Below the pieces are notes generated by a model. It did not search any database. It was not told the origin of the DNA and saw nothing but the letters and a program-made list of their open reading frames with translations. This document shows, in pieces, positions 3,176 through 16,997 of a stretch of 36,748 nucleotides of DNA (position 1 is its first letter; every line of letters starts with the position of its first letter). Source of the DNA: a virus; the IMG/VR virus record IMGVR_UViG_3300042406_000755, positions 1-36,748 of that record; one strand, 5' to 3'. Made by a program: the position numbers and the translations under genes.

Positions 3176-3465
3176 TAGCTTTGCCTCCTCTCGATCTCCA
3201 CATACTCCACATCGGGAGCATCGTAGGTGCGAATGATCCGATCCAAGCGGAACGAGCGCGGCTCCTCGCGGCCGTGATCGTAGGCGCTCAGGATTAGAGA
3301 GGAGTCCTTTGCCTCCCACACCTCCGAAGGGGAAATCAGCCTATGCTGTGGCTCCTCGTCGGGCTTTTCATAGACCAACATTATAGGCACTCGCGCTGAC
3401 GCTGCGTAGTCCAGCGTCGCAGTTATGCCTGCGCTCTCGTTCGTTTCTAGTATGCGTGTGTCCAT
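3175..3465 (-). CDS. WYL-like domain protein, 96 aa
   Basis: ATG at 3463-3465 has GAGAGGTGATCTGGG before it. Residues 25-80 match the outline of a WYL domain: a strand with IMLVYEK, then RLISPSEVW, SLILSAYDHG and RSFRLDRIIRTYD. In WYL regulators the R.F.L..I segment helps bind ligand (often nucleic acid). Here the domain stands alone, without the usual HTH. Phage and defence islands use WYL proteins as regulators, for example of CRISPR or abortive infection systems, so a role in counter-defence or ligand sensing is possible but only inferred. Confidence 0.65.
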   Translation of the reverse strand: MDTRILETNESAGITATLDYAASARVPIMLVYEKPDEEPQHRLISPSEVWEAKDSSLILSAYDHGREEPRSFRLDRIIRTYDAPDVEYVEIERRQS

Positions 3466-4043
3466 CCCAGATCACCTCTCTTTCTTGGTCGAAGAAGGTG
3501 TCCCATCTCCAGCCAATGTCGTTCTGCCGCGATTGCGTCGTCCTCGAACACATCGCGGTCTGTCTTGTATTGCTTGCGTAGCTCCACCGGCCCGAAGTCC
3601 AGCAACTGCTTTATGTGCTGGAACTCGTGCGCTAGTGTGCGTAGCGTCTGTCCTGCTGTGCGATACAGCCTACTACCCTCGTCAAACGGGTCGTCGGGGT
3701 TCGGCTCTGAGCTGACCAGCAGCACCTTTACTTGTGCCAGCGTCTGCGTGTCGCAGTCGAACTTGTAGCGCATCCAGCCATTACAGTTTCGGGCAACCGA
3801 GAACATCTGCGTTGTCGGGTTCCACTTCTGCTGCCGCCGCTCGACGATTAGCGGTAGCTCCGCGCCGAACAGCCACGCCGCATACTCCTGGATGGCGGGC
3901 TTGTTCAGCACGAAATCTACGCGCCGACAGTCACACTCGTCATCGCAGGCGTGATCGCAGCAGCCTGTGTGTTCTTCCAAATAGATTGAGTTTCCGGCCT
4001 CGTCTGCGTGGATTGTGTGTGCGCTAGGCTCGCCAGCAGTCAT
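3447..4043 (-). CDS. HExxH zinc metallopeptidase-like protein
   Basis: 198 residues. The zinc motif is HEFQH (139-143) within TLRTLAHEFQHIKQLLDFG. A likely third ligand is Glu174 in FEDDAIAAER, the gluzincin-like 'HExxH...E' layout. The first 45 residues hold a cysteine-rich cluster (CCDHACDDECDC, 28-39) that could bind a second metal. No signal peptide, so it should act in the cytoplasm, perhaps on a host protein or as an anti-defence factor. Start at 4043 is chosen over the longer frame because upstream sequence encodes the next gene. It overlaps the gene at 3175-3465 by 19 bases. Confidence 0.75.
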   Translation of the reverse strand: MTAGEPSAHTIHADEAGNSIYLEEHTGCCDHACDDECDCRRVDFVLNKPAIQEYAAWLFGAELPLIVERRQQKWNPTTQMFSVARNCNGWMRYKFDCDTQTLAQVKVLLVSSEPNPDDPFDEGSRLYRTAGQTLRTLAHEFQHIKQLLDFGPVELRKQYKTDRDVFEDDAIAAERHWLEMGHLLRPRKRGDLGWTHAY

Positions 4044-4221
4044 CTGTCTCGATCTCCTTGTCGCACTCCTCGCACCACGGCACTTCCAGCCACTCGCACG
4101 CCCCCACCGACAAGTCCTCCTCGACAGGGATTGTTGCGATGTATCCGCACTCGCACCTAACGCTGACATCGTAGCGATCTACGCCTTGCGGGGTTCCCCA
4201 CGGTTGGTATGGATTAGACAT
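4024..4221 (-). CDS. Small zinc-ribbon-type protein, 65 aa
   Basis: ATG at 4219-4221 follows AAGGAGAAGGTAG. Four cysteines occur as CEC (residues 23-25) and WCEEC (49-53), a compact treble-clef or ribbon layout, in an otherwise acidic protein (DVSVRCECGYIATIPVEED). Family not named. First of seven short cysteine-pair proteins in this leftward block. Confidence 0.75.
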   Translation of the reverse strand: MSNPYQPWGTPQGVDRYDVSVRCECGYIATIPVEEDLSVGACEWLEVPWCEECDKEIETDDCWRA

Positions 4222-4507
4222 CTACCTTCTCCTTGTCGTAGTAGCCGGTGTAGATAACGGCCTGTCCCTCGTCGGTGTAGCCAACCGTCATATTGTCGTG
4301 CCAGATGGCCTCGGTGACAAACGACTCGCTCGCCCTCTGACCCTTGTTGCGTCGGTCGATCTCGGCCTGAACTGCCTGAACGCCCTCGGCATATGCGGTT
4401 GCCGCGTTTGCGTAGCGTTCGGCTTGCTCGGCGTAAGTTCGAATGTTCTCGGACAGCCACTTGTCAGACACCTCCGCCAACTCTTTTCGGTCAGTCATTA
4501 TGAACAT
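4214..4507 (-). CDS. Hypothetical helical protein, 97 aa
   Basis: ATG at 4507 shares a base with the upstream stop (TGATG) and follows GGAGGTGG; a second ATG three codons in is possible. A long helix (EQAERYANAATAYAEGVQAVQAEI) of about 40 residues is likely a coiled coil. It is followed by a beta-like end (IWHDNMTVGYTDEGQAVIYTG). No family recognised. Confidence 0.75.
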   Translation of the reverse strand: MFIMTDRKELAEVSDKWLSENIRTYAEQAERYANAATAYAEGVQAVQAEIDRRNKGQRASESFVTEAIWHDNMTVGYTDEGQAVIYTGYYDKEKVDV

Positions 4508-4731
4508 CAGGCACCACCTCCGTCAAAGATTTCTAGGATTTCGTCATCTACAAGCATAGCGCCGCAGTCAAGGCAGGTGTAGCAGTCCTTCTCGTATGCG
4601 CCGCCTATTGGCACCGTGGCTACGCCCACCTTTCCGGCGTCGTCTCGATACAGCTCGTAGTAGTATTCGTCGTAGCCGCGTTCGTAGATGTCGCCTTCCT
4701 TACAGCGCGGGCACTTTATCGGCTCAGGCAT
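4507..4731 (-). CDS. Zinc-ribbon protein, 74 aa
   Basis: Start at 4731 shares a base with the upstream stop. CPRC near the N-terminus (MPEPIKCPRCKEGDIYERG) and CLDC near residue 55 form a classical four-cysteine zinc ribbon. A tyrosine-rich middle (DEYYYELYRD) separates them, and an acidic tail (DDEILEIFDGG) closes the protein. Likely binds nucleic acid or a protein partner; target unknown. Confidence 0.8.
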   Translation of the reverse strand: MPEPIKCPRCKEGDIYERGYDEYYYELYRDDAGKVGVATVPIGGAYEKDCYTCLDCGAMLVDDEILEIFDGGGA

Positions 4732-4922
4732 CAGCCTCCCCTCCAATAATGCTCGCCGCGCCGATGGAACCCTTCCACATCTTGCGGCTCGTCGCCGCCG
4801 ACAAGGAACGGGCGCAGGTGTTCGGGGCACTCTCCCTGGTCGCGCTCCAAGCTGCGCGCCAGATCAACCATTGCTTCCCACTCGCCATAGTATGCGGGGT
4901 GATCGAAGTCGAAGGTCGGCAT
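4731..4922 (-). CDS. Hypothetical protein, 63 aa
   Basis: ATG at 4920-4922, directly overlapping the upstream stop. It is rich in aromatic and acidic residues (PTFDFDHPAYYGEWEAMVDLA). No motif or family recognised. It is called as a gene because it fits exactly between two coupled neighbours. Confidence 0.65.
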   Translation of the reverse strand: MPTFDFDHPAYYGEWEAMVDLARSLERDQGECPEHLRPFLVGGDEPQDVEGFHRRGEHYWRGG

Positions 4923-5137
4923 TAGGACTGCTGCCTTTCCTTGACCTTCTCGATCTCGCTCAGCGCTGCCTCGAGATACGAGTAAGCGGAAGTAATATCA
5001 TTCTCCGCGACCTTGACTCGAGTCGTATCCCACTCGTCCTCGGAAAGCGTAGTATGCGCAAACGACGCTTCCTTTTCTGCGGCTCGGCACGCTGTCATCG
5101 CTACCCTCAGCGCACTCAACAGATCACTTGTTTCCAT
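4922..5137 (-). CDS. Hypothetical helical protein, 71 aa
   Basis: Start at 5137 is set by AGGAGGTGGTGCGA immediately before the ATG. The product is nearly all helix (SALRVAMTACRAAEKEASFA, then SYLEAALSEIEKVKERQQ). An in-frame upstream ATG at 5194 would remove the ribosome site, so it is not used. Function unknown. Confidence 0.75.
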   Translation of the reverse strand: METSDLLSALRVAMTACRAAEKEASFAHTTLSEDEWDTTRVKVAENDITSAYSYLEAALSEIEKVKERQQS

Positions 5138-5165
5138 TCGCACCACCTCCTTGTTCGTTGTTGAC

Positions 5166-5393
5166 TTACAGGCTACCATCGTTGTCAAGTCCATCGCACC
5201 AGCAGACCAGCACGCCCCATTCGGCAGGGTCGGGACACTCGTAAGCGTTCTCGCTCCCGCAGTCCGGGCAGGCTCGCACCGCGTCCTCGAATACTTCCAG
5301 CATCGTGCCGTCCTTCGCCTTGTGCCATCCCACTGTCGCGGGGCGGCGGGGTTCCAGCGGCTCGTCTGTCACAGTGTTTCTCCACTCAGTCAT
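5166..5393 (-). CDS. Zinc-ribbon-type protein, 75 aa
   Basis: ATG at 5391-5393. Cysteines occur as CPDC (residues 42-45), C53 and CWC (64-66) in the second half (VRACPDCGSENAYEC). The first half is basic. Overlaps the next gene start by eight bases. Member of the run of short cysteine-pair proteins; no precise family. Confidence 0.7.
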   Translation of the reverse strand: MTEWRNTVTDEPLEPRRPATVGWHKAKDGTMLEVFEDAVRACPDCGSENAYECPDPAEWGVLVCWCDGLDNDGSL

Positions 5394-5781
5394 CGCTGTC
5401 TCCGGTGTGAATGGTCAGGTGTCCGATCACAATATCGCCGTCCTCGTAGCGCACCGTGAAGGGCCGGGGAAACTCGACCAATCGCATACCATACGGTTCG
5501 GAGATCTCTGCCTCCTCTGGCCGGACTACCCCAATCATTCCAGCGTCGACCGGGTAGGTGTTGCCAGCATCGTCGGGATATACGCCGTCGCCCCCGTATG
5601 TGCCGGACGCGACGAACGCCATTCTTTCGTCGCCGTCAACCTCTGCCTCGAGCAGATCTCTCTTACGAAAGTCTGCCGACTCGAGTAGCTCTAGCCAGCT
5701 CGAGTCGAAGGCATAGCAAGGGTCGCCTACCCAATACTTTCCAGCTTCCAACATTCTTGACTCTGTTTGTCCTCTATACAT
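5386..5781 (-). CDS. Conserved phage-type beta protein, 131 aa
   Basis: Start at 5781 follows AGGAGGTGGTGACG. The segments AGKYWVGDPCYAF and FVASGTYGGDGVYPDDAGNTY followed by PVDAGMIGVV match a small protein family I have seen across phages and bacteria ('WVGDPCY ... YGDG.Y.D..G..Y.VDAG.IG'). Its function is unknown to me. Mostly beta strands, cytoplasmic, acidic tail. Confidence 0.75.
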   Translation of the reverse strand: MYRGQTESRMLEAGKYWVGDPCYAFDSSWLELLESADFRKRDLLEAEVDGDERMAFVASGTYGGDGVYPDDAGNTYPVDAGMIGVVRPEEAEISEPYGMRLVEFPRPFTVRYEDGDIVIGHLTIHTGDSDD

Positions 5782-5914
5782 CGTCACCACCTCCTGTCTC
5801 GTCGCCTACATATACCGCTGCGAGTCCGAGCACAATCGCAATCAAAGCTGTCTGCCACGCGCCCGCTGCGGCAAAGATTACTGCCCCGATAAATACCGCG
5901 ATAGGATAGCTCAA
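5774..5914 (-). CDS. Small membrane protein, 46 aa
   Basis: Begins at TTG (5912-5914), overlapping the previous TGA (TTGA), and ends inside the next gene. Two hydrophobic stretches (AVFIGAVIFAAAGAW and ALIAIVLGLAAVYV) make a tight two-helix hairpin, followed by an acidic glycine tail. The last bases encode the ribosome site of the downstream gene. Too short for most gene finders; the strong hydrophobic pattern and exact packing argue that it is real. Confidence 0.65.
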   Translation of the reverse strand: MSYPIAVFIGAVIFAAAGAWQTALIAIVLGLAAVYVGDETGGGDDV

Positions 5915-6198
5915 GCCTTATCCATCGAGGCTAGCTCCTCGTGAGCGGCCTGTGCCTCGAGGCTTGCCCTCTCGACGCAGTAGCTTTCAGACCCCTTTGT
6001 GCCGTCCTCGACCTCGTACCTCGAGGGGACATAGTTGCCCCAATAGTCGCGATAGCCTTCCTCGCCGAGCATACACTCGCCGAGCTCGATCATCTCCATC
6101 GCGTGCCTGCCGACGGAACCCTCGAGCTTCCACGCTGTCCCGCTGTTTATCAGCTCCTGCGTTTCCCTCACCTGCTCTGTGTACGCTGTTTCAGTCAC
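5911..6198 (-). CDS. Hypothetical protein, 95 aa
   Basis: GTG start at 6198 is fixed by AGGAGGTGGTGCGA directly upstream. Acidic and largely helical (QVRETQELINSGTAWKLEGS; MEMIELGECMLGEEGYRDYW). No recognised domain. Ends at a TGA that overlaps the TTG of the small membrane gene. Confidence 0.75.
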   Translation of the reverse strand: MTETAYTEQVRETQELINSGTAWKLEGSVGRHAMEMIELGECMLGEEGYRDYWGNYVPSRYEVEDGTKGSESYCVERASLEAQAAHEELASMDKA

Positions 6199-6436
6199 TC
6201 GCACCACCTCCTCTTGCCTCGGCCTCAACGATTATCTGCTGTATTTCGTGCGGTTTCAGAACAATCCCGCAAGACAAACATTCGATACCTTCACGCTCTG
6301 GCGTGCCGTCCCAATGCGGCTCGGCGAAAGTTAGACGACCGTCGTCTATCCCTTCCAGCTTACCCCAATCCTGCGTCACATAAGAACGGTAGATTTCGTT
6401 CCCTCCGCATTTCGGGCACCTCACATCTTTATTCAT
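6191..6436 (-). CDS. Zinc-ribbon protein, 81 aa
   Basis: Start at 6436 follows AGGAGGTGGTGCGA. N-terminal CPKCGG (7-12) and CLSC (residues 53-56) form a typical zinc ribbon resembling small transcription-factor-like ribbons. The C-terminus is an acidic helix (PHEIQQIIVEAEARGG). Its stop overlaps the next start. Likely nucleic acid or polymerase interaction, unproven. Confidence 0.8.
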   Translation of the reverse strand: MNKDVRCPKCGGNEIYRSYVTQDWGKLEGIDDGRLTFAEPHWDGTPEREGIECLSCGIVLKPHEIQQIIVEAEARGGGASD

Positions 6437-6755
6437 TCGCACCACCTCCTGTTTCGTTCTCGTACATTGTAGCCCGCTCGTCAAGCTCTCCGTTTAGCTC
6501 TGCGTCCACGCACGACTCGCACATCCACTCAGGCACACTCGGCCGGACTAATCCAAATGCGTGCCAACTATCCCAGCCGCCGCAGTAGTCGCATCGGCCG
6601 ACTTCGTTCGCAAACTTAGCCCGTTCGTCAAGCTCCGCTATCGGCAGGCCGGCCTCGTCGTGCGGGCAGTCTCGGCGATAGCAGCTCTCCGCCTCCTCTG
6701 GCGTGTCGTATTGCGACGCGCACCCTGAACAGTCGTGATACTCGAGCCTAGCCAT
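6429..6755 (-). CDS. Multi-cysteine zinc-binding protein, 108 aa
   Basis: Of two nearby ATGs, 6755 has better spacing to GGGAG. There are nine cysteines, including CSGC, CYRRDC, CDYC and CESC pairs, so two zinc knuckles are plausible. Acidic linkers lie between (IAELDERAKF repeats later as GELDERATM, a small internal repeat). Function unknown. Confidence 0.75.
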   Translation of the reverse strand: MARLEYHDCSGCASQYDTPEEAESCYRRDCPHDEAGLPIAELDERAKFANEVGRCDYCGGWDSWHAFGLVRPSVPEWMCESCVDAELNGELDERATMYENETGGGANE

Positions 6756-7143
6756 ACAGCACATCTCCCAGCAGCCCGGCCTGCGCGATACAGTCGGCAG
6801 CGGTCGCGTCGATCATTCCAGGGTCGCTGGTCACGCCTTGCCATATCCAGCCTCGAATGGTCGTGTTCAGCTCGACGGAACCGTTCAGTATCCGCTCGAG
6901 CCCCAGCGCTACCGCGTCGAGAGTCAGCCGCAGCACCTCGGACTCGTCCTCGTTCTGATCGTCGGTTAGCTCGGCCCAAACCGTCGCGGGGTCGTCCGGG
7001 AAACCGCCGGTCGAGTAGTCCTCGACCGTGGCCCAATAGTTGATACCTCCCTCGACAGCGGTCACGATAATCCCCGCCAGCAGCTCCTCCGTCAGCTCGA
7101 TCTCGATATTCAGATCTCGAGTATTCATTGTTCGTGTCGTCAT
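6748..7143 (-). CDS. Hypothetical phage protein, 131 aa
   Basis: ATG at 7143 follows GAGGAGGACTAG. The middle (IIVTAVEGGINYWATVEDY) is a segment I associate with a widespread small actinophage/bacterial family ('TA.EGG..YW......Y'), function unknown. Acidic, with helical C-terminal half (LRLTLDAVALGLERIL). No transmembrane segment. Confidence 0.75.
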   Translation of the reverse strand: MTTRTMNTRDLNIEIELTEELLAGIIVTAVEGGINYWATVEDYSTGGFPDDPATVWAELTDDQNEDESEVLRLTLDAVALGLERILNGSVELNTTIRGWIWQGVTSDPGMIDATAADCIAQAGLLGDVLYG

Positions 7144-7428
7144 CTAGTCCTCCTCTCCCAAGCCAAACTCGGCTCGGCCGTGTTTCCTCTCGTCGTAGCA
7201 GTGCTCGTGATAGTTGTAGGGAACGCTCGTCATACCATCGCCGCAGCGCACCTCGCAGTCGACCGGGATACCGCCGCCGCACTCGTCGCAGTCGTAGCCT
7301 GCGCACATCTCGCAGAGGTATCCGTCGTTCGTCGGCACTCGATTTATCCCAACGAGGAGCTTAGTCCCGGGCAGCACTCCGGCGGTTCCCCGGCCGCACT
7401 CGAGGCAAGGGTCGACAGCGGCCGTCAT
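7144..7428 (-). CDS. Zinc-binding multi-CxxC protein, 94 aa
   Basis: Start at 7428 overlaps the upstream stop (ATGA). Cysteine pairs CLEC, CEMC and CDEC plus further single cysteines and CYDERKH indicate one or two zinc sites. LPGTKLLVGINRVPTNDGYL sits between them. Such treble-clef arrays often bind nucleic acid; no specific family named. Confidence 0.75.
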   Translation of the reverse strand: MTAAVDPCLECGRGTAGVLPGTKLLVGINRVPTNDGYLCEMCAGYDCDECGGGIPVDCEVRCGDGMTSVPYNYHEHCYDERKHGRAEFGLGEED

Positions 7429-7637
7429 TCCCAGACCCCCTCGAGCTCGATAGCTCCGCAGCTCGCGCACATATAGGCCCCGACCGTCTCTCGATAGAAC
7501 CCCTGCGGCTGCTCGCAAGCTCCGCAGGTTAGGCCCTCCTCGAGTCCGGTCGAGACTACCGCCTCAGCCCTCGAGCTCGAGCACCCGCTCAGCATAACCT
7601 CGTCGGCAGCGTCGAGTGTTTCGTAGGGATTAGCCAT
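7425..7637 (-). CDS. Zinc-ribbon protein, 70 aa
   Basis: Start at 7637 shares its first base with the stop of the upstream membrane gene. CGAC and CASC pairs (about 20 residues apart: TCGACEQPQGFYRETVGAYM) form a simple ribbon. N-terminus is serine-rich. Overlaps the next gene by four bases, so translation is probably coupled. Confidence 0.7.
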   Translation of the reverse strand: MANPYETLDAADEVMLSGCSSSRAEAVVSTGLEEGLTCGACEQPQGFYRETVGAYMCASCGAIELEGVWE

Positions 7638-7810
7638 TAGCGCACCCCTGCCCGGTCGCAGCTCGGGGGAGCGGTCGCAATAGCTCCCAGCGGCGGCGAG
7701 GCACAGCTCCAAGTCGCCCCGGTCATAGCGTTGACCAGCAGCAGCGCAGCAGCGAGCCAAACCGCCGCGGTCGCAAATGCGAGCCCGACTAGCTTAGCTC
7801 GAGTAGTCAC
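7637..7810 (-). CDS. Small membrane protein, 57 aa
   Basis: GTG at 7808-7810 follows GAGGAGGTGAGAGC and overlaps the upstream TGA (GTGA). One long hydrophobic helix (LVGLAFATAAVWLAAALLLV) near the N-terminus is followed by about 30 residues with two cysteines outside it (WSCASPP, PSCDRAG). A single-pass inner-membrane protein; role unknown, superinfection or lysis control possible. Confidence 0.65.
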   Translation of the reverse strand: MTTRAKLVGLAFATAAVWLAAALLLVNAMTGATWSCASPPLGAIATAPPSCDRAGVR

Positions 7811-8145
7811 GCTCTCACCTCCTCGAGCGCATAAGTCGCGACAGAATAGGCGAGGTCATACAGGAGCGCAGTCGCGGTGCTAGCAATCGAGCCGTAAGTC
7901 GAGGCCTGCGGCTCCACGCACAGCAAGTCCAGACAGGACGACGCCAGCTCGACGGCCGCTAGCGTCGCAATCGGAACGGCACTATCGGCGAGCTCGGCCG
8001 CGACTAGCTCGAGATCCCGGTCGTCGTCTTTTAGCTCGACCACCTCCTCGACGATCTCCTCGGCCCAATCGCACAACCGCCAAGAATAGAACCCGGCCGC
8101 CTCGAGCGCTGCGGCCGCTATCTCTGCTGCGGTGCGGTCAGTCAT
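7807..8145 (-). CDS. Hypothetical helical protein, 112 aa
   Basis: ATG at 8145 follows GCGGAGGCGGGTCG. Almost entirely alanine/leucine/glutamate helix (AAEIAAAALEAAGFYSW; EEIVEEVVELKDDDRDLE). Pattern resembles MazG-like or ATP-pyrophosphohydrolase-type helical bundles (WAEEIVEEVVEL..DD), but I cannot confirm the metal-binding ExxE-12-28-ExxD set, so it stays hypothetical. Confidence 0.7.
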   Translation of the reverse strand: MTDRTAAEIAAAALEAAGFYSWRLCDWAEEIVEEVVELKDDDRDLELVAAELADSAVPIATLAAVELASSCLDLLCVEPQASTYGSIASTATALLYDLAYSVATYALEEVRA

Positions 8146-8270
8146 CGACCCGCCTCCGCAACTCGCGCGACCTTCCAGCCAGCTCGCTCGGCTCGATACC
8201 TCGCAACATCGGGGTCGGGAGCGGTCACTATCGCCCGGGCCCCGTTTCGCATCGTCAGCTCGTATCTCAT
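8142..8270 (-). CDS. Small basic protein, 42 aa
   Basis: ATG at 8268-8270 follows GAGAGGAGGCAGCGATT; stop overlaps the next start (ATGA). Product begins MRYELTMRNGARAIVTAPDP and ends in WKVARVAEAGR, a short beta-like fold. Family unknown, but spacing and ribosome site are strong. Confidence 0.65.
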   Translation of the reverse strand: MRYELTMRNGARAIVTAPDPDVARYRAERAGWKVARVAEAGR

Positions 8271-8308
8271 AATCGCTGCCTCCTCTCGGTTTCGTTTCTG
8301 CGGTGTGT

Positions 8309-8578
8309 TCATTCTACCCCTTCCGTCAAGGCCACGAGCCCGGCTCCAAAGTCCTCGCTCTCGAGCGTGACTCGAGCCGCGGCCGTCCTCGAGTAGCCTC
8401 GAGGCTCGAGGTCACGCTGCCCCTGTGCTGCGGCCCAATACTCCGCAAGAAACTCCGCCAGAACCGCAGCGGGTCGCTCGGAGGCTAGGGCCTCCATCAG
8501 CAGGAGCCGGGCGATGCCGCGGCCGTATATCTCCGTCAGCTCGACCAGCTCCTCGACTCCGGGGATAGCTCGGTTCAT
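8309..8578 (-). CDS. Hypothetical protein, 89 aa
   Basis: ATG overlaps the upstream TGA (ATGA at 8575-8578). Helical and acidic (VEELVELTEIYGRGIARLLL; AAVLAEFLAEYWAAAQGQ). First gene in which the CTCGAG word becomes dense. No family recognised. Confidence 0.65.
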   Translation of the reverse strand: MNRAIPGVEELVELTEIYGRGIARLLLMEALASERPAAVLAEFLAEYWAAAQGQRDLEPRGYSRTAAARVTLESEDFGAGLVALTEGVE

Positions 8579-8802
8579 CGAGCGGCCCTCCTCGAGTAGC
8601 CTAGCGTCCGGGCAGCCCCGGCGATATAAGTCGCTGCCGCCATATCTCCCGAGATAGCTGCGGCTCGAGCTTTCGTCGCGGCTCGGCCTGCCTCTCCTGT
8701 CGAGATAGCTCCTCGAGCGTGCCTCGCGAGCCTAGCTCTCGAGCTCGGCTCGAGCTTAGCTCCTATGCGAGCCCAGCGGTTTAGGTGGTCGGTGTCGATC
8801 AT
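8575..8802 (-). CDS. Hypothetical basic Ala/Arg-rich protein, 75 aa
   Basis: ATG at 8800-8802 follows GAGGAGGCGATCAT and overlaps the upstream TGA. Product is rich in Ala and Arg (SSRARLARHARGAISTGEAG). Repetitive composition reflects the CTCGAG island. No family recognised; DNA binding would fit its charge but is not shown. Confidence 0.6.
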   Translation of the reverse strand: MIDTDHLNRWARIGAKLEPSSRARLARHARGAISTGEAGRAATKARAAAISGDMAAATYIAGAARTLGYSRRAAR

Positions 8803-9437
8803 ATGATCGCCTCCTCTCTGTTAGGCGAGCCGCTATAGCTCGCGATTGTGAACTCTTTCGGGTCGGCGGGTTTATCTCCTCGCACTGCGAGCCAGATAAT
8901 CGCCTGTAGCTCCCGAGGCCTCTCGTCGCAATATCTCGCAGCGAGCCGATAGCTCGCCTCGAGCTCGAGGTAGCGTCGGCCCTCCGGCGAGCGTCGCTTA
9001 CAGCCCTCAGCCGCGAGCGCTGCCCAGACATCGACCGTGACCGCCTCTCGATCTCCGAGCAGCGCTCGATAGAAACTCCTCACTTTAGGGCCCCCGAGAA
9101 CCTCGAGCGGCTCAGCTCCGGCCGATATCTCCCAAGCTTTGCGGCGGTTAGCTCCGAAAGCGACCCGCGGCGGCTCGAGATCTCCTCGAGCTGCGGCGAG
9201 CGCAAGTCTCGACGCTTGCGCAAGGTTGACCGTCCAATGCTGGCGAGGGCTCAGCGCTGCGATTATTCCGGCCGCAGCCTCGAGGCCCAGCCCAGCAGCC
9301 CCGGCCAGCCGCTCGACCTCGAGCTCGGCGGCCGGATACCAGCGGCGACCCGCCTCTCGTATCGGCTCGCTCGTCGAGTCGTAAAGCTCGACGACTCGAG
9401 CGACCTGCTCCGGCGAGTGTCCCGGGGGCCTCGTCAT
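8799..9437 (-). CDS. Conserved phage protein, HhH-GPD-like fold suspected
   Basis: Start at 9437 is chosen because it overlaps the upstream TGA (ATGA); an in-frame ATG four codons upstream is the alternative. Segments IIAALSPRQHWTVNLAQA, LGGPKVRSFYRALLGD and AVTVDVWAALAAEG match a conserved phage family whose pattern recalls helix-hairpin-helix DNA glycosylases ('GxKVxSFYxNLxGD ... TVDxHA', with an Asp where glycosylases keep the catalytic Asp). A base-excision or DNA-modification role is inference. The family pattern is preserved although the gene lies in the CTCGAG island, which suggests the word bias is laid over normal protein constraints. Confidence 0.7.
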   Translation of the reverse strand: MTRPPGHSPEQVARVVELYDSTSEPIREAGRRWYPAAELEVERLAGAAGLGLEAAAGIIAALSPRQHWTVNLAQASRLALAAARGDLEPPRVAFGANRRKAWEISAGAEPLEVLGGPKVRSFYRALLGDREAVTVDVWAALAAEGCKRRSPEGRRYLELEASYRLAARYCDERPRELQAIIWLAVRGDKPADPKEFTIASYSGSPNREEAII

Positions 9438-9793
9438 CGACTCCGCCATTCCTCGGAGCGATACTCGCTCCCGGCCCAGATCTCGACCTGTATGGCCTCG
9501 CAGCCATTGGCCCAGCCAGCTCGAGCCGCGGCCGCCAGCGGCTCGGCCAGCTGCTCGAGGTCAGCTCCGACCATCGAGAACACGGCCGAGAACTCGCGAC
9601 CACCGCGCCAGCCTCCTCGAGCGCTGGTCAGTGTGTAGCCTCCGCCAGCCTCGAGGATAGCCTCGACGATAGCTCGGCGAGCTCGCCTCAGCTCGAGGCG
9701 CCGCGGCTGTCCGATAGTTAGCTCGACCCGGGCAGCTCCCGACCAGCTCGACCGGCCGGTCGGAGGCCAGCTCGACAGCAGCTCGGCCGCCAT
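9434..9793 (-). CDS. Hypothetical protein, 119 aa
   Basis: Start at 9793 follows AGAGGAGGTCGAGCTA. Alternating beta-like and helical segments: VELTIGQPRRLELRRARRAI, YTLTSARGGW, EFSAVFSMVG, AIQVEIWAGSEYRSEEW. This looks like a small alpha/beta domain. No family recognised. Overlaps both neighbours by a few bases. Confidence 0.65.
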   Translation of the reverse strand: MAAELLSSWPPTGRSSWSGAARVELTIGQPRRLELRRARRAIVEAILEAGGGYTLTSARGGWRGGREFSAVFSMVGADLEQLAEPLAAAARAGWANGCEAIQVEIWAGSEYRSEEWRSR

Positions 9794-10395
9794 TAGCTCG
9801 ACCTCCTCTCGACAGCCTCTCGCGTAAGCTGCTCGGCCCTCGCAGTGAGCCGGGCAGCTCGAGCCGCAGCCTCTCGAGCTCGACGCTCGACCAGCTCGAC
9901 CAGCTCGTCGAGCTCGGCGACTCGCTCCGGGTCGCCTCCGCAGCAATCGCACAGCGTCGAGCGGAACTCCGAGCTCGCGTCGCTTCTTAGCTCCTCAGCT
10001 CGACGCTTCAGCGCAACCGCGGCTCGAGTGAACCGCTCCGCGGATAGCTCGAGCTCCCGGGCCTCGATAGCTCGAGACTCGAACTCGCTCGCGACCCGAT
10101 AGCTCGACCTCCGCAGCTCGCCTATAGCTCCGGCGAGCTCGCTGGCCTCGCTCGAGGAGATAGCTCGCCTTCCCACTCGAGCTATCTCTCGGAGAAAGTC
10201 GGCGAGCTTAGCGGCTGCGATAGCTCGCTCGAATAGCTCGAGCTCGCCAGCTGCTCGAGATAGCTCCGCAACCTCTCGGAGCCTCCGGGCAGATAGCTCG
10301 AGCTCGAGCCTCGAGTCAGCATCTGCTGCGAGCCCGGCCGCGGTAGCGGCTCGCCAGCGCAGCGCTTCCGGCGTGTTTAGCTCGCGGCTCGTCAT
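9793..10395 (-). CDS. Coiled-coil protein, 200 aa
   Basis: Start at 10395 overlaps the upstream TGA (ATGA). Long stretches of Leu/Glu/Arg/Ala heptad-like sequence (RLELELSARRLREVAELS; ELELFERAIAAAKLADFL) predict a rod-like coiled coil. A single CDCC motif (TLCDCCGGDPERVAELDEL) near residue 155 could bind metal. No family recognised. Confidence 0.65.
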   Translation of the reverse strand: MTSRELNTPEALRWRAATAAGLAADADSRLELELSARRLREVAELSRAAGELELFERAIAAAKLADFLREIARVGRRAISSSEASELAGAIGELRRSSYRVASEFESRAIEARELELSAERFTRAAVALKRRAEELRSDASSEFRSTLCDCCGGDPERVAELDELVELVERRAREAAARAARLTARAEQLTREAVERRSS

Positions 10396-10868
10396 CGAGT
10401 CACCGCCTCGACCGGGGCCAGCGTCGACAGCTCTCGCACCCAGATCGGCGGCCGTCGAGTCCCGGGCAGGTTCTCGAGGCCAGCTCGAGCTAGCTCCGCT
10501 GCGACCCGCTCGGCAGCCCGGGCAAACTCTCGGCCCATCACCGAGGCAGCCGACTCGCTCGGCAGCTTCCCGGCCCTTTCCTCGAGCTCTCTCGAGGTCG
10601 CCAGCTCGAGGATTGCGGCAGCGAGGAGCCCAATGCCCCCAGCCTTCTCGAGCCGCACTCGCTCGACCGGGTGTCCCTTCCACTCGAGCCCTTCCGCAGC
10701 CGCCTCGACCAGCCCAGCAGCTCGACCAGCCGGATAGCGGCTCCGCTCGAGCTGCTGTCGAGCAGCCCTAACCGAGTCCTCGGCAGCAGCCTCGTCGTCA
10801 TTGACCAGCTCTCGAGCCGCTATCCGCAGCAGCTCGGCAGCCATTCTTTCGTGACTCGTCGTGTTCAT
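10392..10868 (-). CDS. Hypothetical helical protein, 158 aa
   Basis: ATG at 10868 follows AGGAGGGCAGAACA, one of the better ribosome sites in the block. Mostly alpha helical and acidic/Ala-rich (MAAELLRIAARELVNDDEAA). C-terminal half contains PGTRRPPIWVRELSTL. Function unknown. Confidence 0.65.
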   Translation of the reverse strand: MNTTSHERMAAELLRIAARELVNDDEAAAEDSVRAARQQLERSRYPAGRAAGLVEAAAEGLEWKGHPVERVRLEKAGGIGLLAAAILELATSRELEERAGKLPSESAASVMGREFARAAERVAAELARAGLENLPGTRRPPIWVRELSTLAPVEAVTR

Positions 10869-11155
10869 TGTTCTGCCCTCCTGTCTGCCGCCAGCTCCGC
10901 CAGCGGCTCGTCGTTATCACAGTCCCGGCCCAACTCAGCCCGAGCCCGGGCCCAACTTGCCTCACGCTCGAGGCGCCGAGCTCGAGCTGCCTCCCGGATA
11001 CCAGCTCGAGCTCGACCAGCTCGAGCCCGGGCCCGGTCGCGACCCGCTCGAGCTGCGAGCCGGGAGCTCGAGGCCCCCAGCTCGTCGACCAGCTCGAGCA
11101 GTTCGTCCGCCTCGACCTCGAGCTCGACCAGCCTCCGCTCGACCCGGGGCCTCAC
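10865..11155 (-). CDS. Coiled-coil Arg/Ala-rich protein, 96 aa
   Basis: GTG at 11153-11155 overlaps the upstream TGA (GTGA). First 30 residues are an acidic leucine coil (LVELEVEADELLELVDEL), the middle a basic run (RARARAGRARAGIREAARAR), so the protein is strongly bipolar in charge. It could bind DNA with the basic part. No family recognised. Confidence 0.6.
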   Translation of the reverse strand: MRPRVERRLVELEVEADELLELVDELGASSSRLAARAGRDRARARAGRARAGIREAARARRLEREASWARARAELGRDCDNDEPLAELAADRRAEQ

Positions 11156-11523
11156 TTGCCAGCCCTCCTGGACTCGATTGCTCGAGCCACCTGGTCGGCT
11201 CGAGCTCGCAGCTCTCGAGCTGTCTCCGCATCGCTCGAGCGCCCGGCGACTATCGCACTCGAGCGGAGCTCGAGCTCGAGCTGCTCGAGCTGCTCGAGGT
11301 CGAGCAGGTGATCGAGGTCGCTGTCGACCCGACCCTCGAGCTCGAGAGTCTGCTCGACCACGAGCTCGAGCTGCTGCCGCTCGACCCTATCCGCTAGGGC
11401 TCGCAGCTCCCGAGCACTCGAGCGGAGGTCGGCAGCGCACTCGCTGCCGACCTCTCCCTCGAGCCCGGAGGCCAGCGCCTCGGCGAGCTCCGCCGCGGCT
11501 CGGTTGCTCTCCGGGGTCGCCAT
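11152..11523 (-). CDS. Coiled-coil Leu/Glu-rich protein, 123 aa
   Basis: Start at 11523 shares a base with the upstream stop (TGATG) and follows GAGGAGGTGGTCGAC. Contains a leucine/glutamate run (LLDLEQLEQLELELRSS) predicted as coiled coil. This gene shows CTCGAG in all three reading positions, so the word, not the protein, seems selected. Confidence 0.6.
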   Translation of the reverse strand: MATPESNRAAAELAEALASGLEGEVGSECAADLRSSARELRALADRVERQQLELVVEQTLELEGRVDSDLDHLLDLEQLEQLELELRSSAIVAGRSSDAETARELRARADQVARAIESRRAGK

Positions 11524-11954
11524 CAGTCGACCACCTCCTCGAGCTGGTCTAGGGCTCGAGCCTCGGCTGCCTCGACTCGAGTCCTGCCGACTCGCTCGAC
11601 CTCCTCGGCGATCCGCTTCCGCCACTCGGCCGCGGAGATCTTGCTGCTGTTCGTGCGGAGCCCGGCTCGAGCCTCGACCTCCTCGACCGGAATGTTCCAC
11701 CAGCGGGAGCCGAACTCCTGCCCGGTCACGAACCCGAGCTGAGCCAGCCGCTCCGCCAGCTCGCCAGCACTCGCTCGAGTGATCGAGGGAACGCCGACCA
11801 TCATCGTCGACCAGATCAGCCGCTCCGTGATAGGCCAAGCCTCCTCAGTGGTCAGCCGCTCCCAGCGCTGCTGTCCCTCCTCGGTTGCTCCGAGCTTCTG
11901 CCCGGTCGAGCGACCCTCGCCGTCGACTTCGTAAAACTGCCAATCGAGCGACAT
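11523..11954 (-). CDS. Hypothetical protein, 143 aa
   Basis: ATG at 11954 shares a base with the upstream stop (TGATG). Residues 30-95 may be a winged-helix-like fold (WPITERLIWSTMMVGVPSIT; GELAERLAQLGFVTGQEFGS), followed by a charged helix (WRKRIAEEVERVGRTRVEAA). A DNA-binding role is possible, weakly supported. Confidence 0.6.
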   Translation of the reverse strand: MSLDWQFYEVDGEGRSTGQKLGATEEGQQRWERLTTEEAWPITERLIWSTMMVGVPSITRASAGELAERLAQLGFVTGQEFGSRWWNIPVEEVEARAGLRTNSSKISAAEWRKRIAEEVERVGRTRVEAAEARALDQLEEVVD

Positions 11955-12199
11955 CAGGCCACCGCCTCGAGCCGGGCGTCGACCATCAGGTCACCTGCTC
12001 GACGAAAGTCTCGAGCGTGCTCTCGAGCCTCCGCTGCGAGTCGAGTCAACCGCTCCCGACTGCCCGAGCCCTCCGGGTGGTCGAGCGCTTGCTGCTCGAG
12101 GCTCCCGGCGAGGTTATCCTCGCGAGCTGCTTGACAGTAGGCAGCGAGCTGGACTAGCCTCGCTGTCTCCTGCTCGATCTTGACTATTCCTATTTCCAT
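11954..12199 (-). CDS. Hypothetical helical protein, 81 aa
   Basis: ATG at 12199 follows AGGAAGGTGACACG. First gene of the leftward run, so its promoter should lie in 12200-12620. Helical (EQETARLVQLAAYCQAARED; RLAAEAREHARDFRRAGDL). No family recognised. Confidence 0.65.
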   Translation of the reverse strand: MEIGIVKIEQETARLVQLAAYCQAAREDNLAGSLEQQALDHPEGSGSRERLTRLAAEAREHARDFRRAGDLMVDARLEAVA

Positions 12200-12545
12200 C
12201 GTGTCACCTTCCTGTTAGGGGCCGGGGCCAATCCCCAGCCACACCCGGAAGGCTACACGAAAACCCGGTCGGAGTGGGCGCCTCGAGGTCGCCTCGAGAG
12301 AGGGTCGCTCGAGCCCCCGCCCGGGCCCCCGGAACCCGGCAGTCCCGGCTCGAGTGAACGCTCGAGCGCTCGAGCCCCGGGGCTCCGGGTCGCCGGGGCC
12401 CCGGGAGGCCGGGAGAACGCCGCTCAGCGCTTCTGGCGTGCCTGTAAATCGGCAATCCGGGCGCGAAAAATCGAAATCAAGGTCTACCAACGACAACCAG
12501 GAAGTAGATTCCCTAACTGGCCCAAAGCACCCTGGACAGGGCAGT

Positions 12546-12585
12546 AGTAATCGACCCCACACGAAGGCGGGGCTGCGGGATTACT
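12546..12585. repeat. Inverted repeat AGTAATC...GATTACT
   Basis: Outer arms AGTAATC (12546-12552) and GATTACT (12579-12585) enclose inner arms CCCC and GGGG around CACACGAAGGC-like loop sequence. The 40-base unit could fold as an extended hairpin in DNA or RNA. No T-tract follows. Confidence 0.4.
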
Positions 12586-12596
12586 TGGTCAGGAGG

Positions 12597-12615
12597 AAAC
12601 GACCCTGCGGGGTCG
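12597..12615 (-). terminator. Possible intrinsic terminator
   Basis: Read on the minus strand, CGACCC/GGGTCG form a 6-bp stem around CGCA, followed by TTTCC. It lies just after the tiny membrane gene ending at 12621. The T-tract is short, so termination may be partial. Confidence 0.4.
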
Positions 12616-12620
12616 CGGGG

Positions 12621-12695
12621 TTAGCGGCGGAAGGGCCAGAGAAGGACGGCGAAATACACCGCCATCACAACGACAACTAGAACCCACTCGTTCAT
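12621..12695 (-). CDS. 24-aa membrane peptide
   Basis: ATG at 12693-12695 overlaps the upstream TGA (ATGA). The whole product is one hydrophobic helix with a basic end (MNEWVLVVVVMAVYFAVLLW, then PFRR). Same size and same coupled layout as the 24-residue gene at 2152-2226. Single-pass inner-membrane peptide, role unknown. Confidence 0.55.
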   Translation of the reverse strand: MNEWVLVVVVMAVYFAVLLWPFRR

Positions 12696-12778
12696 CTGCG
12701 AGGAGGTCCGGCGATCAAGATCAGCATCGAGAGATAGACAGCGACGGCTGCGAAAGTGAGAGCGATCTCGACGGCCAC
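12692..12778 (-). CDS. 28-aa membrane peptide
   Basis: GTG at 12776-12778 shares a base with the upstream TAG. One hydrophobic helix (EIALTFAAVAVYLSMLILIA) followed by GPPRR. The bases encoding GPPRR form the ribosome site (GGACCTCCTCGC region reads weakly), so coupling is the likelier way the next peptide is made. Confidence 0.55.
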   Translation of the reverse strand: MAVEIALTFAAVAVYLSMLILIAGPPRR

Positions 12779-13044
12779 TATCGACGCATCTTCTTCAACT
12801 GCTTGCGCTCGTACTGAAGCGCATCGCTGACCTCGCGGAGTCGGCCGTCGTACTCTGGTCCGCCCCAGGCAATCTTGCCGATGGCGGAACGGATCGGTCG
12901 CATCGCGTCTTCAAGGGAGCGCAGCGTCTTCTCGATCACGCGGTCGCGATCCTTCGAGCCAGGCTTGTGCGAACGGCGAATGTCCTCGCGCGCTCGGCGG
13001 GCAGCCTCGGCGGTTTCCTGTGCCTTCTCTATGTGCGGGGTCAT
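12778..13044 (-). CDS. Hypothetical basic helical protein, 88 aa
   Basis: Start at 13044 follows AGGTGGAT; the longer frame to 13113 would run into the divergent control region. A highly charged helix (EKAQETAEAARRAREDIRRS) ends in a basic tail (YERKQLKKMRR). First gene of a short leftward unit with the two tiny membrane genes. Family unknown. Confidence 0.7.
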   Translation of the reverse strand: MTPHIEKAQETAEAARRAREDIRRSHKPGSKDRDRVIEKTLRSLEDAMRPIRSAIGKIAWGGPEYDGRLREVSDALQYERKQLKKMRR

Positions 13045-13057
13045 ATCCACCTGTCGA

Positions 13058-13063
13058 ATAGTA
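13058..13063 (-). promoter_or_regulatory. Possible -10 box for the 12778-13044 unit
   Basis: TACTAT on the minus strand fits TANNNT and lies 13 bases before the ATG at 13044, leaving room for the AGGTGG ribosome site in a short leader. No clear -35. Confidence 0.35.
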
Positions 13064-13119
13064 CTAAGCGGCCGGGCGAAAAAGGCGCGGCCGAGAAACA
13101 GGCACCGTTTCACGGGCTG

Positions 13120-13216
13120 AAAACTGGGTTAAAAGCCCCAGAAGCAATTTGGCTTAAACACTTGATCTGCGGTTATTTACACACTGGGGGTCTATATAGA
13201 CCCCCTGTGTAAATAA
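13120..13216 (+). promoter_or_regulatory. Structured leader/operator element, copy 2
   Basis: A block at 13120-13141 matches copy 1 at 21 of 22 bases and folds as CTGGG(N8)CCCAG. After exactly 33 bases comes the long hairpin: TTATTTACACA/TGTGTAAATAA (13173-13183 / 13206-13216), a CT bulge, and the perfect 20-base palindrome GGGGGTCTATATAGACCCCC (13186-13205). GCGGTT/AACCGC can extend it outward to 13169-13222. Relative to copy 1, a G-C pair becomes T-A and the inner stem changes on both sides together. It points at the portal gene, 58 bases before its ATG. Confidence 0.75.
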
Positions 13217-13259
13217 AACCGCCTTGTTTCACGGACGAACCCTTCGTCGGGCGGGGCGA

Positions 13260-13265
13260 TAGACT
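13260..13265 (+). promoter_or_regulatory. -10 box TAGACT before portal
   Basis: TAGACT lies eight bases before the portal ATG, and no ribosome site is present in between. Fits a leaderless or near-leaderless transcript. Confidence 0.45.
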
Positions 13266-13273
13266 ACTTTTCG

Positions 13274-14695
13274 ATGGCGCAATTTTCTGACCTGATTCTC
13301 GGACGCTCTACCAGCAAGGCACTTCAGCCTACCAACCAGCCGACGCCGGACTTCGCCATTGGCGGGGGCACCCTGCGTGGCCGCAGACTCGCCGGACGCT
13401 CAGCCCAGCGTCACCTCGAAGCCTACGGCGGCAAGGACGCAATTGACTGGGTGATGGACTGCGTAGATCTCTACGCCAACACCGCCAGCAACGCCGACTA
13501 CTACTTCCGCCGTGGAGACGAGGTTGTGGCCCCCCGCGCCGCTCTCAACAAGTACGATAACGCGGTAGCGGCTCCCGACGATCTAGTCAACCTCTTCTCC
13601 TCCCCCAACCCGTTTATGGACTACACCGAGCTGCTTGAGCTGTCGGTGATCGATCTTCTCGTTGCGGGCGAATTTATGTGGCTCAAGTTCCGGCCTGAGA
13701 TCGAGACAGGCAAGCCGCTGGCGCTGTACCGCCTGTCGCCTGCGCTGATCGAGATTGAGCTGAACGAGAACGACTATCCGGAGGCGTACGTCTATCAAGC
13801 TCCTGGCAGGACCGGCGAGCCGGTGCGCTTGAAGCCGGAGCACATCGTCCACGTCAAGCGCCCGAACCCCCACGACCCGTGGAGGGGTATGAGCATCATC
13901 GCGGGCAACCCTCGGATGTACGACATCGAACTCGCCCTCACGGAGTCAGTCGCCCAGTACTACGAGCAGTCCACGCGACTGTCAGGGGTGCTGGAATCGG
14001 ATCGGTCCATCCCGCCTTCGACGTGGGTGAAGATCAAGCGTCAGTTCCAGCAGCTCTACTCCGGCCAGGACAATGCCTACAAGGTGGCGATGCTGGAACG
14101 CGGTCTGAAGTTCAAGCCGATCTCTGGTAACGCGGCCGAGGCGCAGTTCGTGGAGCTGTCGGGTCTTTCGAAGCAGCGCATCGCCGATGCGTTCCGCGTG
14201 CCGCTCCCGCTGCTTGGAGAGGTTGGCTCGGCCGACCGCCAGGCCGTCCGCGAGTCGCAGCGCATCTTCGACAACAAGACGATGCGCCCGTTCCTGAACC
14301 GCATCCAGGCGCAGGTGTCGCAGCAGCTCACGCAAGCCTGGGGTCTGGACTTTGTAATCGACTACGAATATGTGATGCCTATCGAGGACCGGCTCGACCT
14401 TGCCGCCTCGATGGCGACGCTGCCTGGCGTGCAGGTCAAGGACATCCGCGCGCAGGTCGGCCTGGAGCCGCTGGCGGTCCAGAAGGAGGAGTGGTCGAAG
14501 GTGGATGACGTGATCTTGAACCTGCCAGGCCAGGAGCAGAAGCGCGGCGGCTTTGCGGATCGTGCGATGGGCACCGAGGCCGGACGCCCGCCGGACCCGC
14601 AGAACACGCGCGAGTTCCCGCAGGACGGATCGCTGCCCGAAGGCGCGGACGCTATGAACCCTAACGAGGAGGTGCCGAATGGCAGCCAAGCGTAA
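13274..14695 (+). CDS. Portal protein (HK97-like)
   Basis: 473 residues, the usual length for HK97-type portals. It forms the dodecameric ring at the capsid vertex through which DNA enters and leaves. Recognisable family stretches: LYANTASNADYYFRRG, the helix-rich core with LLVAGEFMWLKF, LYRLSPALIEIELN, KPEHIVHVKRPNPHDPWRGM (the 'H....P...RG.S.I' motif) and AFRVPLPLLGE with the late-domain ADRQAVRESQRIFDN. The C-terminus is proline/glycine-rich and disordered. First gene of the rightward operon, unusually not preceded by terminase genes. Confidence 0.95.
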   Translation: MAQFSDLILGRSTSKALQPTNQPTPDFAIGGGTLRGRRLAGRSAQRHLEAYGGKDAIDWVMDCVDLYANTASNADYYFRRGDEVVAPRAALNKYDNAVAAPDDLVNLFSSPNPFMDYTELLELSVIDLLVAGEFMWLKFRPEIETGKPLALYRLSPALIEIELNENDYPEAYVYQAPGRTGEPVRLKPEHIVHVKRPNPHDPWRGMSIIAGNPRMYDIELALTESVAQYYEQSTRLSGVLESDRSIPPSTWVKIKRQFQQLYSGQDNAYKVAMLERGLKFKPISGNAAEAQFVELSGLSKQRIADAFRVPLPLLGEVGSADRQAVRESQRIFDNKTMRPFLNRIQAQVSQQLTQAWGLDFVIDYEYVMPIEDRLDLAASMATLPGVQVKDIRAQVGLEPLAVQKEEWSKVDDVILNLPGQEQKRGGFADRAMGTEAGRPPDPQNTREFPQDGSLPEGADAMNPNEEVPNGSQA

Positions 14696-15371: not shown

Positions 15372-16997
15372 ATGGACGCAAAGGCTCCTTTTGAGTTTGA
15401 GATCGCGCTGCCGACCGAGAAGTCGGTTACAACCGACGCTGGAGATGTCATCATTGAAGGCTATGCAGCGGACTTCGAAGTTGATCGCCAGGGCGAGGCG
15501 TTCCTTCCAGGAGCATTTGACGATGCCTGCAAGAAGGCCACTCGCGCGGAGATCCCACTACTCTTTGAGCACGATAACAACCGACAGCTTGGTGTTATTG
15601 AAGAACTCCGCGTGGACCCTGAGCGTGGTCTTTGGACACGCGCTCGAATCGCAAAAGCACAAGCTGGGACTTGGGCTGAAGATGTCGTCGATAAGGTAAG
15701 GCGCGGAATGATGAAGGGGCTGTCCGTTCGCGGCCTCTCGAAAGTCAAGATGACCGCCAACGGACCGAGGATCGGCACCATCGACCTCGCCGAGATTTCT
15801 GTGACGCCCGTTCCAGTTCAGCCAGGCGCGCTCTTTGCGGTCGCGCAAAAGTCTCTCGCCGCCGCCGAAGAAGACCTCGCCGCCGGTGAGATCGAGGTTG
15901 TCGAGGACGAAACAGAAAAGGCGCTGGCCTACTTTGAGGATCGGCTGGCAAGTCTGACCGCCGCCTTCGAGGAAGTGTCAAAGGCGATGCACGAGGGCGA
16001 CCACTCGGAGGACTCCGAGGTGGACGAGGGGATGCTGGCTGGCCTGCTTGACCGCATCGGCCTCGCCGCGCAGGCCGGAGACGCTGAGATGCTGGCCGAG
16101 ATCTTCACAATGATCGAGTGGCAGTCCGAGTGGGACGAGTCCGTGGACGATATGACTTACAAGGGCCGCGAAGAGCTGCCTGCGCTGCTTCGAGCTGTGG
16201 TCGAGGTCGCTAGAGCGGCTGGCGGTAAGCCGACCGCCGAGGATCTGCGCGCCGTCATTCCTTCCAAGAAGTCGATGGGCGACTTCACTGATCGTCCCTG
16301 GTCCGGCTCTTCGGCAGGCTACACCGACGAGCAGTGGCGTCGCGCTTGTGTTCTGGATCGAGGCGCTGAGGCCGGAGAAGGCAAGCAGCGCTACGGGCTG
16401 CCGGTGCGCGAGCCGGACGGAACGCTGAACTGCCGCGCCGTGGCCAATGCCCGCGCTCGCATCTCTCAGGTCAAGGGAGCCTCGGCCGAGGCTGTTGCTC
16501 GCGCGCAGCGCAAGCTCGACACCTTTGCCAAGCAGTGCGAGAACTATCGCTCGAAGTCGCTGACCGGTTGCGAGAAGTGTGACTGCATTGACTGCGCCAA
16601 CTGCGACTGCATCGACTGCGACTGCGTGAACTGCAAGCCCCGACAGACTGAGAAGTCTGAGACTTGGCAGCGTAAGGAAGGGCAGAACCCAAAAGGCGGA
16701 CTAAATAGTAAGGGTCGGGCCTCGCTCAAGGCGCAGGGCCAGAACATCCGACCTGGCGTAAAGAATTACTCGAAGGCGTCGGTCGCCAACAAAAAGCGCT
16801 GGATCTCCTGGGCGCTGCGCTTCTACACCAACCCTTCCGGCCCGATGGTGGATAAGAACGGAAACCCGACTCGACTGGCCCTGACCGCTGCCGCCTGGGG
16901 TGAGCCGGTGCCAAAGACGCGAGCCGCCGCGCTGGCGATTGCCGCGAAGGCCCGACGCCGTAAAGCCGAACTCGAACGACAAGGAGCCTACAAGTGA
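15372..16997 (+). CDS. Prohead protease with Cys-cluster and C-terminal DUF6321-like module
   Basis: 541 residues, over twice the normal prohead protease length. Residues 1-170 are an S78/U35-type HK97 prohead protease: VIIEGYAADFEVDRQGEAF, likely catalytic His67 in LFEHDNNRQLG and Ser118 in KGLSVRG, then DLAEISVTPVPV. It should cleave the delta domain of the major capsid protein and other head proteins. Residues 175-300 are acidic and helical, possibly scaffold. Residues about 305-395 hold a module (GYTDEQWRRACVLDRG, KQRYGLPVREPDGTLNCRAV) seen in other phage head proteins. Nine cysteines at 400-421, spaced CxxC and CxC, form a metallothionein-like cluster. The end (GGLNSKGRASLKAQGQNIRP, TRLALTAAAWGEPVP) resembles a stand-alone phage domain I recall as DUF6321. 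Confidence 0.9.
   Translation: MDAKAPFEFEIALPTEKSVTTDAGDVIIEGYAADFEVDRQGEAFLPGAFDDACKKATRAEIPLLFEHDNNRQLGVIEELRVDPERGLWTRARIAKAQAGTWAEDVVDKVRRGMMKGLSVRGLSKVKMTANGPRIGTIDLAEISVTPVPVQPGALFAVAQKSLAAAEEDLAAGEIEVVEDETEKALAYFEDRLASLTAAFEEVSKAMHEGDHSEDSEVDEGMLAGLLDRIGLAAQAGDAEMLAEIFTMIEWQSEWDESVDDMTYKGREELPALLRAVVEVARAAGGKPTAEDLRAVIPSKKSMGDFTDRPWSGSSAGYTDEQWRRACVLDRGAEAGEGKQRYGLPVREPDGTLNCRAVANARARISQVKGASAEAVARAQRKLDTFAKQCENYRSKSLTGCEKCDCIDCANCDCIDCDCVNCKPRQTEKSETWQRKEGQNPKGGLNSKGRASLKAQGQNIRPGVKNYSKASVANKKRWISWALRFYTNPSGPMVDKNGNPTRLALTAAAWGEPVPKTRAAALAIAAKARRRKAELERQGAYK

Follow-up and report, generated by a model that had tools for sequence, protein, structure and literature searches.

A putative early operon of a tailed phage is densely packed with the palindrome CTCGAG

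The DNA analysed here (hereafter the window) is a virus record of the IMG/VR class, 36,748 nucleotides long, whose genes encode an uncultured tailed phage (Table 1). Its structural genes run rightward from position 13,274, and a set of small overlapping genes runs leftward starting at 12,199. Judging by gene content and layout, the leftward set is probably early and the structural set late, and we use the two terms in this sense below; a consensus scan of positions 12180-13320 for a promoter between the two sets was negative. A second record from another IMG/VR dataset (G001) matches the window at 99.87% identity over positions 1-22121 and at 99.97% over 29069-36748, and reaches about 10 kb further left than window base 1; in this extension it encodes a family A DNA polymerase, a primase-like protein and a SNF2-type helicase. 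More than half of the differences between the two records over window positions 1-22121 (16/28) fall within approximately 550 bases (3181-3729), a cluster that suggests recent recombination. Searching bacterial genomes with the capsid protein, in quest of the host, gave no match, and DNA searches of phage records returned no match to the window.

Table 1. Features of the window discussed in the text; early assignments are putative.
Feature	Position	Strand	Remarks
HTH protein	690-1274		
CTCGAG island	4970-12374		101 copies
phrog_2355 protein	6748-7143	-	shares 40% identity with a gene of the homologous G004/G002 region
Dense core of CTCGAG island	7701-12420		85 copies
Early gene, 112 aa	7807-8145	-	
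Early gene, 42 aa	8142-8270	-	homologs 55% identical in G004 and G005
Early gene, 89 aa	8309-8578	-	
Early gene, 75 aa	8575-8802	-	
DUF7178 / phrog_3842 protein, 216 aa	8799-9449	-	
Early gene, about 119 aa	9434-9793	-	no family match
Early gene, 200 aa	9793-10395	-	no family match
Early gene, 158 aa	10392-10868	-	no family match
Early gene, 96 aa	10865-11155	-	GTG start
Early gene, 123 aa	11152-11523	-	Leu/Glu/Ala/Arg-rich
Early gene, 143 aa	11523-11954	-	only a sub-threshold PaaX_M match
First early gene, 81 aa	11954-12199	-	no family match
Non-coding stretch upstream of first early gene	12200-12380		6 CTCGAG; sharp right edge of the island
Portal	13274-14695		structural genes run rightward
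Head maturation protease-like protein	15372-16997		
Major head protein	17729-19123		
Tape measure	23823-28349		
Terminase	33633-35078	-	

The early genes are interwoven with an island of the six-base palindrome CTCGAG. An initial annotation, counting by hand, had reported about 80 copies in positions 8340-12380, and the exact count there is 81; the next commonest words of this stretch are GCTCGA, TCGAGC and AGCTCG. The saturation is thus real, but the island is longer than was described, with 101 copies over 4970-12369; this leftward extension, the other missing palindromes and the relatives had all been overlooked. In the core there is approximately one copy per 55 bases, and the density declines leftward from about 20-26 to 4-5 per kb (10, 7, 20, 9, 10, 8, 7, 8, 4, 7, 2, 1, 3, 3, 2 and 0 copies in successive 500-base steps going left from 12,380). 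The right edge is sharp, at about 12,375, and peak density adjoins the early control region, where the word does continue past the last gene into non-coding DNA, as had been noted. It is also rare elsewhere, with three copies beyond the island (20907, 21710 and 24030), a depletion compared to the 9.2 expected in the right-hand part of the window.

An artefact of assembly or sequencing is extremely improbable as the source of the island, since G001 carries it together with both flanks at 99.9% identity; its genes are also coherent, many of them with ribosome-binding sites. Some actinophage homologs of the DUF7178 / phrog_3842 protein are annotated as DNA glycosylases. Among the phage proteins scanned, neither a methyltransferase nor a candidate CTCGAG-binding protein was identified.

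A codon-preserving shuffle, proposed as a check in the initial annotation, fails to reproduce the abundance of the word. Synonymous codons were shuffled in 12 island genes over 1000 runs, with the proteins and the pooled island codon usage held fixed; these genes contain 78 copies of CTCGAG as compared to 24.2±3.7 expected, and the maximum in 1000 runs was 38. Recoding the island proteins with the codon usage of the structural genes lowers the expectation to 8.5±2.7. The excess extends to all three codon phases (39, 29 and 10 observed, compared to 17.9, 5.0 and 1.2 expected), and the gene at 11152-11523 indeed carries the word in several phases. The excess in every phase, the non-coding copies and the shuffles together indicate that the DNA word itself, rather than the protein, is favoured, as was first suspected. 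The island proteins also differ in composition from the structural proteins, being richer in Ala (18.7 vs 11.3%), Arg (12.8 vs 6.0%), Glu (12.6 vs 5.9%) and Leu (10.5 vs 7.3%). Homologs of the DUF7178 protein share the residues that lie under CTCGAG, just 14 in all, at 18%, as compared to 36% elsewhere, so that the protein seems to have yielded to the word. Taken together, the data exclude chance, codon usage and assembly error as causes of the island, as well as protein composition as its full cause.

The words most strongly elevated above the synonymous shuffle were CTCGA, GCTCGA, CTCGAG and CTCGAGC, and AGCTCGAG ranked among the leading 8-mers. At the level of DNA, the early operon shows an extreme excess of a palindrome centred on TCGA, chiefly CTCGAG and its extension AGCTCGAG. 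Words that differ from CTCGAG at an outer base are enriched in the island (CTCGAC 46 observed vs 23.8 expected, CTCGAT 13 vs 5.5), while those that differ at the centre are missing (CTGGAG 0 vs 14.4, CTAGAG 0 vs 5.5, CTTGAG 0 vs 2.0). The island contains no CTTGAG or CTCAAG, the products expected of CpG decay of CTCGAG, although just 2 were expected. In the flanks of the word only a G at position -1 (55%) and an A at -2 (34%) stand out, and neither a fixed spacing nor a long conserved flank was found in the island; helical phasing was rejected for want of an excess at 10-11 bases, and codon phasing of the spacing for want of a 3-base period.

The initial annotation had proposed as candidate roles a mutational drive, a site of methylation, a binding array or a signal for packaging or segregation. 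Several of the features above could be produced by biased repair or gene conversion, in which word-specific methylation, nicking or mismatch repair turns near-misses into CTCGAG. Such a drive, of the kind proposed for HIP1, would start from a focus at about 12.3 kb, carry the word outwards and need no benefit to the phage; indeed, Elhai's model yields over-representation without function (PMC4390886). It would account for the involvement of all frames and of non-coding DNA, for the wiping out of the central variants, for the fall in density away from the focus and for the near absence of CTGGAG from other CTCGAG-rich phage loci (see below). However, a drive should act genome-wide, yet the late genes are depleted of the word, and CTCGAC, which differs only at an outer base, is enriched rather than consumed. 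Furthermore, no phage enzyme suited to the task was seen, and none of the 10 differences between G001 and the window in 8675-12152 gains or loses a CTCGAG, although this is a weak test. We consider this explanation somewhat unlikely.

The related records fall into three sequence groups, the first holding the window, G001 and G007, the second G002, G003, G004 and G006, and the third G005. The head proteins of the second and third groups are 95% and 92% identical to that of the window, respectively, and alignments of portal and capsid revealed no further relatives save one weak capsid-like fragment. A comparison with related phages had been suggested when the island was first noticed, and CTCGAG turns out to occur in no record of the second or third group, with 0 observed as compared to about 17 expected in G005 and G002. 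Window positions 1-5330 align piecewise with G005, and similarity returns at 12,425 with G002 and G004; between these points there is no nucleotide similarity to the relatives, only scattered related proteins (8142-8270 and 6748-7143). The island coincides with this gap (about 5.3-12.4 kb) and thus corresponds to the hypervariable early module.

The relatives carry an intergenic cassette before their small early genes, with approximately 9-13 copies in each record (L146 2385-7200; L143/L144, G005 41431-43979; L137/L138). Each copy consists of a long covarying hairpin (compensatory changes in 10/18 pairs) with an invariant tRNA T-loop (GGGTTCGATTCCC), followed by a CCCC-ATTA-GGGG hairpin and a ribosome-binding site. 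A tRNA array was rejected, as ARAGORN and Rfam gave no tRNA or known family; in form the cassette resembles a mimic of an acceptor/T-arm, perhaps acting as an RNase P or other processing signal.

The early region is also marked by the words that it lacks. Window positions 1-12420 contain no ACGT, TGCA, AATT, TTAA, CATG or GGWCC and only three GTAC (6016, 6181 and 6462), where the late rate would predict 33.7 ACGT, 29.1 TGCA, 18.4 AATT, 20.9 TTAA, 11.2 GGWCC and 31.1 GTAC. The late region retains these words, except for CATG, which is missing from the whole window. The losses go beyond codon effects (CATG 0/47 late and 0/23 early; ACGT 0/18 and TGCA 0/21 early), and the lowest early/late ratio among non-palindromic tetramers was 0.34. 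Rightward of the deserts, GTAC reappears at 12811, TTAA at 13129, AATT at 13146, ACGT at 13788 and TGCA at 14430; in the leftward extension of G001, TGCA and GTAC are met again within about 0.5 kb, TTAA and ACGT after about 3 kb and AATT after about 4 kb. In the homologous part of G005, ACGT, GTAC and AATT are missing, a single TTAA occurs and the TGCA desert is shorter, while the late part of G005 contains the desert words at normal numbers. Deserts of word-specific lengths also appear in L143/L144 (G005 31601-43999) and L146 1-8037, and share with those of the window a right edge near the early/late boundary.

Longer words are affected as well. The whole window is without CATG, CCWWGG, CGATCG, CTGCAG and GGTCTC, whereas the loss of CYCGRG, GTMKAC, CCGCGG, RGGNCCY and GTCGAC is complete or almost complete only outside 4.9-12.4 kb, with 122, 10, 11, 12 and 10 copies inside, respectively. 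The island thus keeps the short-word deserts yet escapes several six-base avoidances. The late genes of the window hold 3 CYCGRG compared to 27 expected; with the absence of CTCGAG from the relatives, this upholds the early impression that the island reverses the usual avoidance of palindromes by phages, and supports a contrast stronger than was then apparent. The tetramer lost genome-wide differs by lineage, being CATG in the phage of the window and AGCT (and CCAGG) in relatives (L142-L144, L137); AGCT is missing from all of G005 and G002 (0, compared to Markov expectations of 189 and 66). The early loss of palindromes is probably due to word-specific avoidance of restriction sites, limited to early DNA for several words. 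In L135 (9438-10169), a dATP/dGTP diphosphohydrolase domain fused to DUF4406 adjoins a family A DNA polymerase, an arrangement reminiscent of 2-aminoadenine phages. A 2-aminoadenine genome was considered on these grounds and rejected, because a whole-genome base change would not yield early-only deserts; no PurZ-like gene was recognised among the proteins scanned.

It could be argued that CTCGAG is simply what remains when proteins rich in Ala, Arg, Glu and Leu are encoded in a region without six short words. When a broad list of depleted words, chosen post hoc, is barred from the shuffle, the expectation does rise, to 42, but we place no reliance on this version. With only restriction-like words forbidden, the expectation stays at 24.3±3.1; it rises to 31.6±3.2 when CTGGAG is forbidden too and to 37.4±2.6 for all CTNGAG. 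None of these reaches the 78 observed, and at the synonymous level the by-product explanation is largely refuted. Furthermore, window positions 1-4900 have the same deserts as the island and G005 has overlapping ones, and both are without CTCGAG. We therefore regard this explanation as improbable.

The density of the island was compared with that of viral and bacterial loci preselected for clustered CTCGAG, the matches listed being samples. The window reaches 49 copies per 2 kb, as compared to maxima, among the matches listed, of 27 for viruses (at least 228 loci) and 24 for bacteria (at least 119). One phage locus, L175, carries 121 copies in 13.9 kb, of which a synonymous shuffle covers 116 observed vs 40 expected, and an off-frame excess is common among the listed phage loci; this is suggestive only, because the loci were chosen for CTCGAG. 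Across L175, L120, L059, L244, L183, L198, L102 and L017, CTGGAG was observed 3 times vs about 81 expected from the synonymous shuffle. In the G008/L252/L205 phage group, which has no detected similarity to the window, dense non-coding CTCGAG declines into the neighbouring genes; the repeats (L139 3100-4085, L252 3034-3620, L205 9640-10135) adjoin a terminase gene or a glutamine-amidotransferase-like (GATase-like) gene, and L252 has tandem GATCGCCAGCTCGAG units.

Loci such as L175, with an all-frame excess, raise the possibility that the module (about 5.3-12.4 kb) came by exchange from a lineage of phages whose DNA is generally rich in CTCGAG for reasons of its own. The limits of similarity to relatives, 5,330 and 12,425, match the island, and the avoidance of CYCGRG, GTMKAC, CCGCGG, RGGNCCY and GTCGAC ceases inside it. 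On the other hand, the module shares the missing words of the window, including CATG, which is absent in this phage and present in its relatives, so that it has probably been in the lineage for long, under the same pressures. In addition, the viral and bacterial loci listed include no donor of similar density, and an import merely shifts the question to the donor. We consider such an import unlikely.

Several known systems resemble the island in part. HIP1, the highly iterated palindrome of cyanobacteria (GCGATCGC), for which an origin in biased repair was proposed (PMC4390886), is likewise over-represented in coding and non-coding DNA, as CTCGAG is here beyond codon effects (78 vs 24±3.7). 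However, HIP1 is eight bases long, genome-wide and tied to host methyltransferases, whereas the six-base word described here is confined to one 7.4-kb phage operon, with no methyltransferase among the proteins scanned. The cluster A mycobacteriophage stoperators, which act on transcription, are also many copies of a short word, but these 13-base asymmetric sites number more than 20 and lie in promoters and short intergenic gaps (PMC9283540), as opposed to the approximately 100 palindromic, six-base and mostly intragenic copies of CTCGAG. The complete loss of Type II-like palindromes (CATG, ACGT, TGCA and others), beyond codon effects, resembles the restriction-site avoidance described in whole phage genomes (Rusinov et al. 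2018, PMC6286503), from which it differs in that several words are missing only early, where one palindrome is hugely enriched. The early deserts also recall the principle that first-active DNA is kept free of sites. In phage T5, the first-step-transfer DNA is not known to carry EcoRI sites, although later DNA has them; used as a positive control, this first-step DNA had no tetramer deserts comparable to those of the window.

The reading that we favour, tentatively and as a possibility only, is direct selection for CTCGAG as a protein-recognition word in early DNA. Two things lead us to prefer it over its rivals: the word, avoided elsewhere, is concentrated close to the early control region, and the proteins have yielded to it. 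The shuffle excess, the non-coding copies, the absence in relatives and the non-coding arrays of the G008/L252/L205 group also speak for it. CTCGAG would be the recognition word of a sequence-specific DNA-binding or DNA-modifying protein, encoded by phage or host and acting on early DNA. Selection would have packed the early module with the word, most densely beside the early control region, and accessory proteins under weak constraint would have been rewritten in the process. Once bound, the protein may cover the early operon or silence it, or may shield it for as long as it forms the exposed part of the genome; avoidance of the word in the rest of the genome would keep the effect local. Against selection, no helical phasing, regular spacing or long flank marks the copies, the proteins scanned yielded no candidate binder or methyltransferase, six bases give low specificity for a binding site, and about 100 sites are far above known regulatory arrays. 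Moreover, CCCGGG, GTCGAC, CCGCGG and RGGNCCY occur inside the island though lacking elsewhere in the genome, so that general relaxation or a foreign origin accounts for part of the pattern. A fuller scenario, in which approximately 100 CTCGAG mark the early DNA for a phage or host protein, host-cut palindromes were purged from that DNA and its proteins were rewritten, is quite doubtful as a whole; if true, it would point to a local DNA "vocabulary", with early DNA written in protective words at the cost of its proteins.

Palindromes of the HIP1 kind have been hard to explain partly because they are genome-wide. A sharp 7-kb island in a nearly word-free remainder, with word-free relatives, provides a natural experiment for separating selection, repair bias and import. 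The early-only deserts further suggest that the restriction-exposed part of phage DNA may be readable from sequence, a notion that is testable in many phages.
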